DNA of 64,000 nucleotides. Source: Propionibacterium sp. (GTDB lineage Bacteria; Actinomycetota; Actinomycetes; Propionibacteriales; Propionibacteriaceae). Shown piece after piece: positions 4,027 through 46,111 of the stretch. Within the stretch, counting starts at the first letter, position 1. Each line of letters opens with the position of its first letter. The stretch spans positions 62,001 to 126,000 of the forward strand of contig JAAYTZ010000018.1 of NCBI GenBank assembly GCA_012517965.1. The letters are read 5' to 3'. The translations under genes were made by a program, and so were the position numbers. The notes below the pieces were generated by a model, which was given only the letters and a program-made list of their open reading frames with translations, had not been told where the DNA came from and ran no database searches.

Positions 4027-5838
4027 TCAGGCGGACGGAGCCGCCTGAGCCGGCGCCTTGGCCCCCTTCTCGACGGGCTTGGCGTCCACGCCGGCCTCCT
4101 TGCGCTGCTGGGCCGAGATCGGGGCGGGCGCCTGGGTGAGCGGATCGTAGCCACCGCCCGACTTCGGGAACGCGATCACGTCCCGGATGGTGTCGAAGCC
4201 GCCCAGCAGCATGACGAGCCGGTCCAGGCCGAACGCGATGCCGCCGTGGGGCGGCGCCCCGTACTGGAACGCGTCGAGCAGGAAGCCGAACTTCTCCTGC
4301 GCCTCCTCCTCGGACAGCCCCATCACCTTGAACACCCGCTGCTGCACGTCGCGGCGGTGGATACGGATCGACCCGCCGCCCACCTCGTTGCCGTTGCAGA
4401 TGAAGTCGTAGCCGTAGGACAGTGCGGAGCCCGGGTCGGTGTCGAAGGTGTCCATCGACTCCGGCTTGGGGGAGGTGAACGCGTGGTGCACGGCGGCCCA
4501 CTTGCCGGCCGCGAGCGACACGTCGCCGGACGCCTCGGCGTCCTCGCGCAGCTTGAACATCGGGGCGTCGACGACCCACAGGAACGACCAGGCGTTCTCG
4601 TCGATCAGGCCGCAGCGGCGCCCAATCTCCAGGCGGGCGGCACCCAGGAGCTCCTGGGTCGCCTCGCGCTTGCCCGCGCCGAAGAAGATGCAGTCCCCCG
4701 GCTGGGCGCCCGTCGCGGCGGCCAGCCCGGCGCGCTCGGCGTCCGTGATGTTCTTGGCGACCGGGCCGCCCAGCTCGCCGTCCTCGCCGATCGTGACGTA
4801 CGCGAGCCCCTTCGCCCCGCGCTGCTTGGCCCACTCCTGCCAGGCGTCGAAGGCACGCCGCGGCTGCGACCCACCGCCGGGCATGACGACGGCGCCCACG
4901 TACGGGGCCTGGAAGACGCGGAACGGGGTGCCGGCGAAGTACTCGGTCAGCTCGACGATCCGGTTCTCGAAGCGCAGGTCGGGCTTGTCGGAGCCGTAGT
5001 GGTCCATGGCGTCGTGCCAGGTCATCCGCGGCAGCGGCAGCGGCATCTCGACCCCGACCAGCTTCCAGCAGGCCGCCATGACCTGCTCGGAGACGCCGAT
5101 CACGTCGTCCTGGTCGACGAAGCTCATCTCGATGTCGAGCTGGGTGAACTCGGGCTGCCGGTCGGCGCGGAAGTCCTCGTCGCGGTAGCAGCGCGCGATC
5201 TGGTAGTAGCGCTCCAAGCCCGCCACCATCAGCAGCTGCTTGAACAACTGCGGGCTCTGCGGCAGCGCGTACCAGCAGCCCGGGTGCAGGCGGGCCGGCA
5301 CCACGAAGTCCCGGGCACCCTCCGGGGTCGACCGGGTGAGGGTCGGCGTCTCGACGTCGACGAAGTCGAGCCCGTCGAGCACCCGGCGCATCGTCGACGT
5401 CACCTTCGACCGCAGCCGGATCGCCGCCGCCTGCCGGGGACGCCGCAGGTCCAGGTAGCGGTACTTCAGCCGGGCGTCCTCGCCGACCGTCGTGCGCTCG
5501 TCGATCTGGAAGGGCAGCGCCGCGGACGGGTTCAGCACCGTGAGCTCGCGGATGGCGACCTCCACCTCGCCGGTGGCCAGGTTCGGGTTCACGTTCTCCG
5601 GGGTGCGGGCGTCCACGACGCCGGTCACCTGGATGCAGAACTCGTTGCGGAGGTCGTGAATCCCGGACGCCGCCAGGTACTCGTCGCGGACGACGACCTG
5701 GCAGATGCCCGAGGCGTCCCGCAGGTCGATGAAGGCGACCCCGCCGTGGTCGCGGCGGGCGGCGATCCAGCCGGCCAGCGTGACGGTGGTGCCCACGTCG
5801 GCCTGACGGAGGGTCCCGGCCCGATGGGTGCGAAGCAT
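4027..5838 (-). CDS. aspS: Aspartate--tRNA ligase
   Basis: [41 protein letters not shown]..., [14 protein letters not shown]. Confidence 0.97.
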
Positions 5839-18506: not shown

Positions 18507-19121
18507 CTATCGGGTCTTCGCCAGCGTGCGCAGCGCGGCCTTCATGAGGTCGCTCACGCCGAGGCCCGGGTCGTCCTCGGCGAGCGGCGCGACCCGCTCG
18601 ACGGCCGCGGCGGCGTCCCGGGCGGACCAGCCCAGCGACTCCAGGCCGGCGGCGACCTGCTCGCCCCAGCCGGACGCCGCGGAGGCGGGCGGCGGCGAGG
18701 CGGTGCCGGAGGACGAGCCCAGCGCGTTGATCTTGTCGCGCAGCTCGATGACGAGCCGCTCCGCACCCTTGCGGCCGATGCCGGGCACCTTCATCAGGGC
18801 GGTCAGGTTCTCCGAGGACACCGCGGCCCGCAGCTGGTCGGGCGGCAGCACCGACACGCAGGACAGGGCGATCTTCGGTCCGATGCCGGACGCCGACTGC
18901 ACCAGTTCGAAGGCGTCGCGCTCGGCGGCGTCCGCGAACGCGTAGAGGGTCAGGGAGTCCTCCCGCACGATCAGCGTGGTGTGCAGCGTGACGCGCTCGC
19001 CCACGCGCGCGGACGCCGACGTGGCCGGCGTGCAGAGAGCCCGCAGGCCGAAGCCGCCGAGGTCGACGACGAGCCAGGTGACGCCGGCCGCGACCACGGT
19101 GCCGGTCAGGCGGTCGATCAC
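18507..19121 (-). CDS. ruvA: Holliday junction helicase RuvA
   Basis: MIDRLTGTVV..., SGIGPKIAL, VPGIGRKGAERLVIELRDK. Confidence 0.95.
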   Translation of the reverse strand: MIDRLTGTVVAAGVTWLVVDLGGFGLRALCTPATSASARVGERVTLHTTLIVREDSLTLYAFADAAERDAFELVQSASGIGPKIALSCVSVLPPDQLRAAVSSENLTALMKVPGIGRKGAERLVIELRDKINALGSSSGTASPPPASAASGWGEQVAAGLESLGWSARDAAAAVERVAPLAEDDPGLGVSDLMKAALRTLAKTR

Positions 19122-19690
19122 GACAGTCTCCTCTCCCGCGCCCTGGCGCGGCTCGCGGCCCTCCCCGCGGCCAACTCGGCGCGGAGGCGGGCCTCCTCGA
19201 CGCGCCGCAACGCCGGTGCCCGCCACAGGTGGCAGATCGCCAGCGCGACGGCGTCCGCGGCGTCCGGCGGGCGGGGCGGGGCGTCCAGTTTCAGGACGCG
19301 CATCACCATGTGACCGACCTGCTCCTTGTCCGCGCGGCCGGAGCCGGTGATGGCCGCCTTCACCTCGGTGGGGGTGTGCTGGACGACCTGCAGGCCGGCC
19401 CGGGTGCCCACCAGCAGTGCGACCCCGGCCGCCTGCACCGTGCCCATGATGGTGCTCACGTCCCGGCGGGCGAACGGGCGTTCGACGGCCATGGCGTCCG
19501 GCCGGTACTCGGCGATGAACTGCACCAGCGACCGCTCGAGCGCCGCCAGGCGCTGACCCGGCTCCAGGTCGGCGGAGGTGCGCACCACGTCGGCCGCCAG
19601 CAGGACCGGGGAGCGGCCGGGACCGCCCTCGACGACCCCGACACCGCACCGGGTCAGGCCGGGGTCGACGCCCAGCACGCGCATGCCCAC
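19118..19690 (-). CDS. ruvC: Crossover junction endodeoxyribonuclease RuvC
   Basis: MRVLGVDPGLTRCGVGVVEG; DAADAVALAICH. Confidence 0.95.
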   Translation of the reverse strand: MGMRVLGVDPGLTRCGVGVVEGGPGRSPVLLAADVVRTSADLEPGQRLAALERSLVQFIAEYRPDAMAVERPFARRDVSTIMGTVQAAGVALLVGTRAGLQVVQHTPTEVKAAITGSGRADKEQVGHMVMRVLKLDAPPRPPDAADAVALAICHLWRAPALRRVEEARLRAELAAGRAASRARARERRLS

Positions 19691-19817
19691 CCCTCCCGAC
19701 GGGACCCCGCGCCCCGAACGTTTGTTCGGATGCTAGCGGACGCCGGCGCCCCGGCGCGGATCTCGGTCGGCGGGTCGCCGGCGAGCCGCGCGGGGGGCGT
19801 GGCGGTCGCGAGCCGGG

Positions 19818-45115: not shown

Positions 45116-46111
45116 ATGAACTTCTTCAGCACGCTGCTGCGCACGCTGCGCACGATCCTGGCTGGCCGGCCGAGCCCGGCTGCGGCGTCCGGCCCCGCCC
45201 CCACCCCGAGCCTCGACCCGCCGGTCCGGACAGACGAGCCCCGCACCGAGTGGGCGCAGCGCCGGGCCGCCCTCACCTCGGACCGCGCCGGCGGCTCGAC
45301 GGTCTGCGCCGTCTGGCAGGACGCCTCCGGTCTCGCCCAGCGACGGTTCGGTACCCCCGGCGGCGACGTCCGAGTCGCCTACCTGGACGCCGTCGCACAT
45401 GTCGTCGCGCTGGCCGGCACCGACGACGCCGACGCCGGTCCGACCAGGGTGTTCGTGGCCGATCGGATCGTGCGGGAGGGGCTGCTGGGCTACGCCGCCT
45501 CCTTCCCCGCGCTCAGGTTCGTCACCGACCCGGACGCCGAGGACTGCGCCCTGCTCGCGCAAGCCCGTCGCCTGGCGGCCCGCCGGGACGCGCCGACGAC
45601 GCCCCGGAGCCCCGGCACCCCCGCCACACGGGCGGACGCGGCCGCTGCGGTGCCGGCACCGTTGACGGTCGCGACGGACGCCTCGCGCGGCCGGGTCCCC
45701 GGCCTCGGCCTGGCCTGCATCGCCGAGGACGGCCGTCACGCGGTGGCGTACCGGGCGGCGTCCGAGTCCATTCACGCCGGCGAGCTGCGGGCGCTGCGAC
45801 TGGCCCTGGACACCTTCCCGGGCGTGCGACTCCGGCTCCTCACCGACAGCCGGCTGGCGGTCGCGTGGATCGCGGACCCGGCGGCCGCCCCCACCCGCGC
45901 CCTGCGGGCACTGGCCACCCCGATCGCCGCCGAGGTGCGCCGGCGCCGCTGCGAGGTGACCTGGGTGCGGGGTCACGCGGGCCACCCGCTCAACGAGGCC
46001 GCCGACCGGCTCGCGGTGGCCGCGCGCCGCGGCGTCCAACTCGGTCAGCCCGCCGACGTCTGCGCCGACATCGCCCGGCGCATCGCGTCGGAGCTGTCGA
46101 CGGCCGCCTGA
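45116..46111 (+). CDS. RNase H-like protein
   Basis: C-terminal VATDASRGR...GELRALRLAL...TDSRLAVAW...VRGHAGHPLNEAADRLA matches the RNase HI catalytic DEDD pattern. Confidence 0.8.
   Translation: MNFFSTLLRTLRTILAGRPSPAAASGPAPTPSLDPPVRTDEPRTEWAQRRAALTSDRAGGSTVCAVWQDASGLAQRRFGTPGGDVRVAYLDAVAHVVALAGTDDADAGPTRVFVADRIVREGLLGYAASFPALRFVTDPDAEDCALLAQARRLAARRDAPTTPRSPGTPATRADAAAAVPAPLTVATDASRGRVPGLGLACIAEDGRHAVAYRAASESIHAGELRALRLALDTFPGVRLRLLTDSRLAVAWIADPAAAPTRALRALATPIAAEVRRRRCEVTWVRGHAGHPLNEAADRLAVAARRGVQLGQPADVCADIARRIASELSTAA

Follow-up and report, generated by a model that had tools for sequence, protein, structure and literature searches.

The heptamer GGACGCC (GGCGTCC on the opposite strand) is a highly iterated, site-autonomous, orientation-independent, and vertically inherited genome word of the class that contains HIP1 and the uptake sequences, the textbook examples of such words. 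In the source genome (3.27 Mb), whose nearest named relatives are Propioniciclava species, it occurs 10,973 times, against 1,668 copies of the reversed word used as a control (6.6x). It thereby meets the requirement for a highly iterated genome-wide oligomer, its frequency across the whole genome greatly exceeding what composition and codon nulls predict, and that a genuine force acts at the level of the oligomer is close to certain. Genome-wide figures given here are counts, and the finer tests were made on sampled stretches.

Within the window, the whole 64,000-bp stretch of DNA that was analysed (positions 1-64000), the word occurs 252 times, dispersed over both strands at about 4 copies per kb. 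It is the top heptamer there by count and by excess over Markov models of orders 1, 2, and 3, which predict 51, 38, and 64 copies, respectively, and none of 100 dinucleotide-shuffled windows (50.4±7.2 copies) reaches 252, confirming the recurrence on both strands noticed in a preliminary description of this DNA. The same description had counted 10 copies between positions 18601 and 19750 where fewer than one was expected; exactly 10 are found, base composition predicting about 0.7. Six lie on the reverse strand (18612-18618, 18927-18933, 19250-19256, 19259-19265, 9 bp from the one before, 19280-19286, and 19493-19499) and four on the forward strand (18672-18678, 18888-18894, 19011-19017, and 19738-19744, the last being intergenic, upstream of ruvC). 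This segment spans most of ruvA (18510-19121, reverse strand; Pfam RuvA_N/HHH/RuvA_C), ruvC (19118-19684, reverse strand; Pfam RuvC, 3.5e-45), and the gap upstream of ruvC. The word occupies 5 of the 8 positions permitted by the protein sequence in ruvA and 4 of 5 in ruvC, making the two genes motif-rich (9/13), although heterogeneity between genes is small overall (chi2/df 1.35). The segment is only a mild local peak: 1150-bp segments hold 4.5 copies on average and 12 at most, and 2.8% of them reach 10. As a separate observation, 324 kb of sequence contain 14 inverted pairs of the form GGACGCC-N2/3-GGCGTCC (start distance 9 or 10) against an expectation of roughly 2, and both coding and uncalled DNA hold them (window positions 4528, 9431, 24952, and 47814, as well as loci L017-L029).

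The dependence of the word on coding context was assessed in 212 genes called in 324 kb of the source genome. These hold 881 copies, compared with 334±13 after synonymous codons are shuffled within each gene, so that the outcome proposed at the outset as refuting the observation, counts explained by codon and dinucleotide models with a z-score near 0, does not occur. An excess is seen in all six combinations of phase and orientation (1.9x-8.8x) and is greatest where codon usage opposes the word, being 7.5-fold for GGA|CGC|C and 8.8-fold for GG|CGT|CC as against 2.0-fold for G|GAC|GCC. Density is similar in the two kinds of DNA, at 4.0 per kb in uncalled DNA and 3.5 in genes; the gene finder was simple and missed some genes, ruvA among them, and uncalled DNA is not purely intergenic. 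The suggestion that Ala-Ser is often written GCG-TCC also stands, with a motif copy at each of the five examples cited (near 45190, 45760, 53850, 54930, and 56360), and can be put more sharply: serine is encoded by TCC in 78% of cases after GGCG, 42% after CGCG, and 24% after GGCC, so the last base of the codon preceding alanine helps to decide the serine codon.

Further resolution comes from four-fold degenerate sites, at which use of the motif base when the other six letters match was compared with its use when exactly one of those six differs. The odds ratios in eight Propioniciclava genomes are 5.1 for G1, 3.1 for G2, 8.5 for A3, 10.3 for C4, 3.7 for G5, 9.1 for C6, and 5.0 for C7, the effect being present in 29 codon contexts and both orientations, with every lower confidence limit above 1. 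The motif base is generally favoured against each of the three alternative bases, by transition and transversion alike. Odds ratios scatter around 1 in low-motif genomes and in two motif-poor 20-kb islands, where numbers are small. Preferences in the flanks (C-2, C-1, G+8, and C+9) are only weak around the compact 7-bp core, and there is no long flanking consensus. The force is therefore directed at the 7-mer rather than at codons, proteins, or composition, each of the seven positions counts, and the suspicion that a force acts on the oligomer itself is borne out by synonymous shuffles, flank-contingent codon choice, and four-fold sites together. If read as a mutation-drift balance, the logarithm of the odds ratios (1.1-2.3) is the scaled strength per letter. 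The idea that high GC, codon usage, or a preference for certain codon pairs (GAC-GCC, GCG-TCC) produces the word incidentally can be set aside with hardly any reservation. Although high-GC actinobacteria naturally have many GAC-GCC pairs preceded by G, and the majority of GC-rich Actinomycetes carry 1-2x the reversed control, the synonymous-shuffled counts, the maximal excess in codon-disfavoured phases, the dependence on a base of the adjacent codon, and values of about 1 in relatives of similar GC (G016, 0.70) all contradict it, and within-gene shuffles and matched-flank tests rule out a codon or GC artefact. Two further features of composition were seen in passing: genes of the source genome strongly avoid seven-letter runs of G or C (14 versus 118 codon-shuffled; window and L017-L029), and GGWCC is depleted, at least partly as an arithmetic consequence of inflated GGAC.

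The copies behave as independent and unoriented units. No replication-strand skew was found in 20 blocks of the closed genome G001 (420 copies on G-rich versus 453 on C-rich strands), a test that relies on GC skew, a weak proxy in that genome, and no strand bias of the motif appears at contig level. Neither the leading-strand polarity of Chi nor the replichore strand polarity of FtsK KOPS is met, and within the limits of what GC skew in G001 reveals a strand-polar motif is rejected. Among the functions floated initially, a segregation motif of the strand-polarised, KOPS-like kind is accordingly disfavoured, and an uptake-like or Chi-like role has not been demonstrated. Spacing is near random (Poisson; CV 1.08) and no more even than that, without regularity or saturation, and occupancy is no lower where another copy lies close by (stratified odds ratio 0.97-1.44). 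At orthologous positions (76% protein identity) the conservation odds ratio is 3.2, compared with mostly 4-8 (range 0-37) for twelve control words, giving no extra positional conservation over control 7-mers, and there is no sign of concentration in particular genes. The force is thus exerted per copy and clade-wide, is neutral to orientation, and is not positional.

Comparison with related species, one of the checks originally proposed, shows the same motif enriched in all 13 genomes of the genus Propioniciclava, with enrichment graded through the family. In 8 of the 9 Propioniciclava species sampled, no other 7-mer is so strongly over-represented. P. tarda is densest, with 13,828 copies in 3.0 Mb (11.7x control), and P. 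flava is the weakest of the genus with 4,888. Occupancy of protein-permitted positions follows suit, at 55% in P. tarda, 45% in the source genome, 33-51% in six other species, and 19% in P. flava, compared with 6% in the two motif-poor islands. By order-2 excess GGACGCC ranks first in the sampled genera g18, g32, and g9 and second in g4, behind GACGCCG, whereas codon-shuffle analysis of g9 favours the variants GGACGCG/CGGACGC. Genera g5, g14, g15, and g30 lie close to the control, with some small genomes lower still. In a sample of 297 Actinomycetes genomes, the top outsider (G440 of g24, Propionibacteriales, outside the family) reaches 3.5x control; its 4,826 copies versus 1,360, unlike its congeners, could reflect an independent gain or an ancestral remnant.

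The word is largely missing from DNA that appears to have been acquired recently. Two of the twenty 20-kb blocks of G001 have observed-to-expected ratios (O/E) of 0.63 and 0.71, while the other 18 are at or above 2.4; these two, L132 (C1, 720001-740000) and L136 (1440001-1460000), contain almost no motif and are lower in GC. Phage-like loci lie at O/E 0.4-1.2 with one exception at 3; the three phage-portal contigs comprise two at 0.6-1.2 and one at 3.0. The portal of one of the two low contigs (L212; G010:C385, from a Propioniciclava draft genome) is 99% identical to that of two IMG/VR viral contigs, L207 and L208, which at O/E 0.5-0.7 lack the host's motif excess, as does L212 itself; no viral relatives were found for the portal of G006. 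Depletion in recently acquired DNA, a hallmark of DNA uptake sequences, is hence met by the two islands and most phage-like loci.

Among known iterated words, HIP1 (GCGATCGC, cyanobacteria) and the alternate HIPs resemble GGACGCC in being genome-wide, strand-neutral, present in genes and elsewhere, and very dense, and HIP1 is likewise clade-wide with some members in which it is weak or lost (PMC4390886). HIP1 reaches 300-2700 copies per Mb in most cyanobacteria (PMC4390886); GGACGCC, at about 3,400 per Mb in the source genome and 4,600 in P. tarda, is denser, the chance background of a 7-mer also being higher. In contrast to HIP1, it is 7 bp long and actinobacterial, and it does not meet the HIP requirement of palindromy, since it differs from its own reverse complement and only the outer GG/CC are symmetric. 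HIP1 and the alternate HIPs accompany cognate methyltransferases (PMC4390886), and a HIP-type word tied to such an enzyme is one proposal for GGACGCC. In its favour, GACGCC fits GRCGYC, and a resident orphan PF01555 methyltransferase with motif-rich surroundings is present in the source genome, in P. tarda, and in G008, with homologues in G010 and G092. However, this enzyme has no close homologue in the motif-enriched genomes G001, G002, G004, G005, G009, G011, and G012, most other methyltransferase loci lie in motif-poor DNA and look recently acquired, and the word is not palindromic. Only the families PF00145, PF01555, and PF02384 were searched. C5 methyltransferases had no match in G002, G008, and G012, PF01555 none in G011, and PF02384 (type I) none in G008, so that no C5, N4/N6 (PF01555), or type I enzyme is a partner common to the genus and the clade-wide orphan methyltransferase expected of a HIP is not met within these families. 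For the HIP1-like element entertained in the preliminary description, a cognate methyltransferase is therefore unsupported within these families and in the absence of methylome data, and such a partner seems improbable. Two loci of the source genome are recorded for their own sake: the orphan PF01555 methyltransferase of L109 (922-2316; G000:C81, about 21.3-22.7 kb) carries a C-terminal cytidine/deoxycytidylate deaminase-like domain (PF00383, 4.5e-18) in one open frame, its P. tarda homologue being the methyltransferase alone, and beside a C5 methyltransferase, L103 (2136-2624; G000:C103) holds an ORF resembling a very-short-patch (Vsr) repair endonuclease, judged from its translation by eye only.

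The uptake sequences of Neisseriaceae and Pasteurellaceae (DUS/USS) occur at about 1 per kb. Like GGACGCC they are dispersed in both orientations, are absent from acquired DNA, and exist as variant words (dialects) in related genera, and they can be explained by a weak per-copy drive (PMC1939737). GGACGCC differs in being shorter and denser, in showing no saturation between neighbours, and in lacking evidence of preferential uptake. Chi, the word read by RecBCD/AddAB, is similarly short, GC-rich, asymmetric, and over-represented outside acquired DNA, and its polarity is not universal, Chi being unskewed in Pseudomonas syringae Lz4W (PMC5959072). At about 1 in 600 bp per orientation GGACGCC is several-fold denser than Chi, found once per 4.5 kb in E. 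coli and once per 3 kb in P. syringae, has no leading-strand skew, and shows an excess that does not track RecC type within genera; a Chi role remains possible in the absence of RecBCD biochemistry. By distribution, then, GGACGCC resembles both HIP1 and DUS/USS, while by symmetry and methyltransferase it is not a HIP. A literature search on Actinobacteria, from which subscription journals were mostly excluded, returned no described case and no mention of GGACGCC in such a role.

Three mechanisms for the force remain to be weighed. The first, which we regard as unlikely though not negligible, is that the word is bound by an abundant protein that organises the nucleoid or structures the chromosome, with many weak sites each conferring a small benefit. 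The even spread over genes, both strands, and non-called DNA, the lack of saturation and of positional conservation, and the compact core with weak flanks all suit such a protein, but no candidate has been tested, binding data being absent, and the protein would have to tolerate newly acquired DNA without sites.

The second, somewhat better placed but still rather unlikely, is a site-autonomous bias of repair or mutation, in which a bound protein or a sequence-sensitive mismatch or lesion repair makes the heptamer hypomutable or the favoured product, the copies themselves being functionless. It is supported by the independence of the copies (no reduction near others, near-Poisson spacing, no extra conservation, and little heterogeneity between genes) and by the disfavouring of all substitution types, as would follow from protection of an entire bound site. 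A route through a single chemistry (C-to-T deamination or its repair, for example) can be excluded because transitions and transversions are affected at all seven positions. We know of no enzyme with a 7-bp repair preference of this kind. A repair-driven origin has been proposed for HIP1 (Elhai 2015, PMC4390886). In its most far-reaching form this bias would constitute a new bacterial class of site-autonomous motif drive, in which a 7-bp word that is hypomutable or the favoured repair product reaches about half of coding-permitted positions with functionless copies and no methyltransferase, in organisms without MutS/MutL, which Actinobacteria are not known to carry; this extension is to be doubted slightly more than the bias itself.

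The third, GGACGCC as a self tag for DNA exchange, is the reading we prefer over repair bias and binding protein, albeit tentatively and at less than even confidence, as it is inferred without uptake data. On this view a component inherited vertically, belonging either to DNA uptake or to end-processing and recombination, would prefer DNA carrying the word, and word-containing alleles would replace word-less ones slightly more often than the reverse. The per-site advantage would be equivalent to a scaled coefficient of about 1-2.3 (the logarithm of odds ratios of 3-10), and copies would build up until mutation balanced gain, at about one-third to one-half of protein-permitted positions in most species; a weak force on each copy separately would in this way keep GGACGCC dense in Propioniciclava and related Propionibacteriaceae. 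A reader in the uptake or RecC pathway is available, since ComEC is present in 57 of 58 genomes searched, including all those of the genus except the fragmented G012, and RecC (PF04257) in 49 of 50. The presence of ComEC expected for an uptake sequence and of a RecBCD/AddAB-type enzyme expected for Chi (met through RecC) are both fulfilled but undiagnostic, as both proteins also occur in low-motif genomes and neither correlates with the motif. The RecC tree follows genera, with motif enrichment centring on the clade g1+g18+g9, a pattern that any core reader would give, and enrichment varies inside genera that share one RecC type. Self-tagging for exchange is the best known way of arriving at a pattern of this kind, and the islands and word variants agree with it; by analogy, the shifted variants in g4 and g9 may be likened to dialects of uptake sequences or Chi. 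Against it stand the lack of an identified reader, the even use of genes, spacing no more even than random, and above all the missing saturation: with a copy every ~300 bp, a kilobase fragment ought to gain little in uptake or rescue from one copy more, yet occupancy near other copies does not fall. This lack of saturation speaks rather for a repair bias acting at each site on its own or for a binding protein whose sites add up.

Denser than HIP1, asymmetric, and apparently without a shared methyltransferase, GGACGCC offers a case in which the strength per position can be read directly from synonymous sites, so that the dispute between selection, uptake drive, and repair bias becomes testable in culturable species, P. 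tarda DSM 22130 among them. Within Propionibacteriaceae the motif biases codon choice and motif discovery, and in the genus its density sets recently acquired DNA apart and could be used to locate islands. If the word is indeed a reader-driven self tag, it would suggest that Actinobacteria take up DNA, or control recombination, in a sequence-specific manner.
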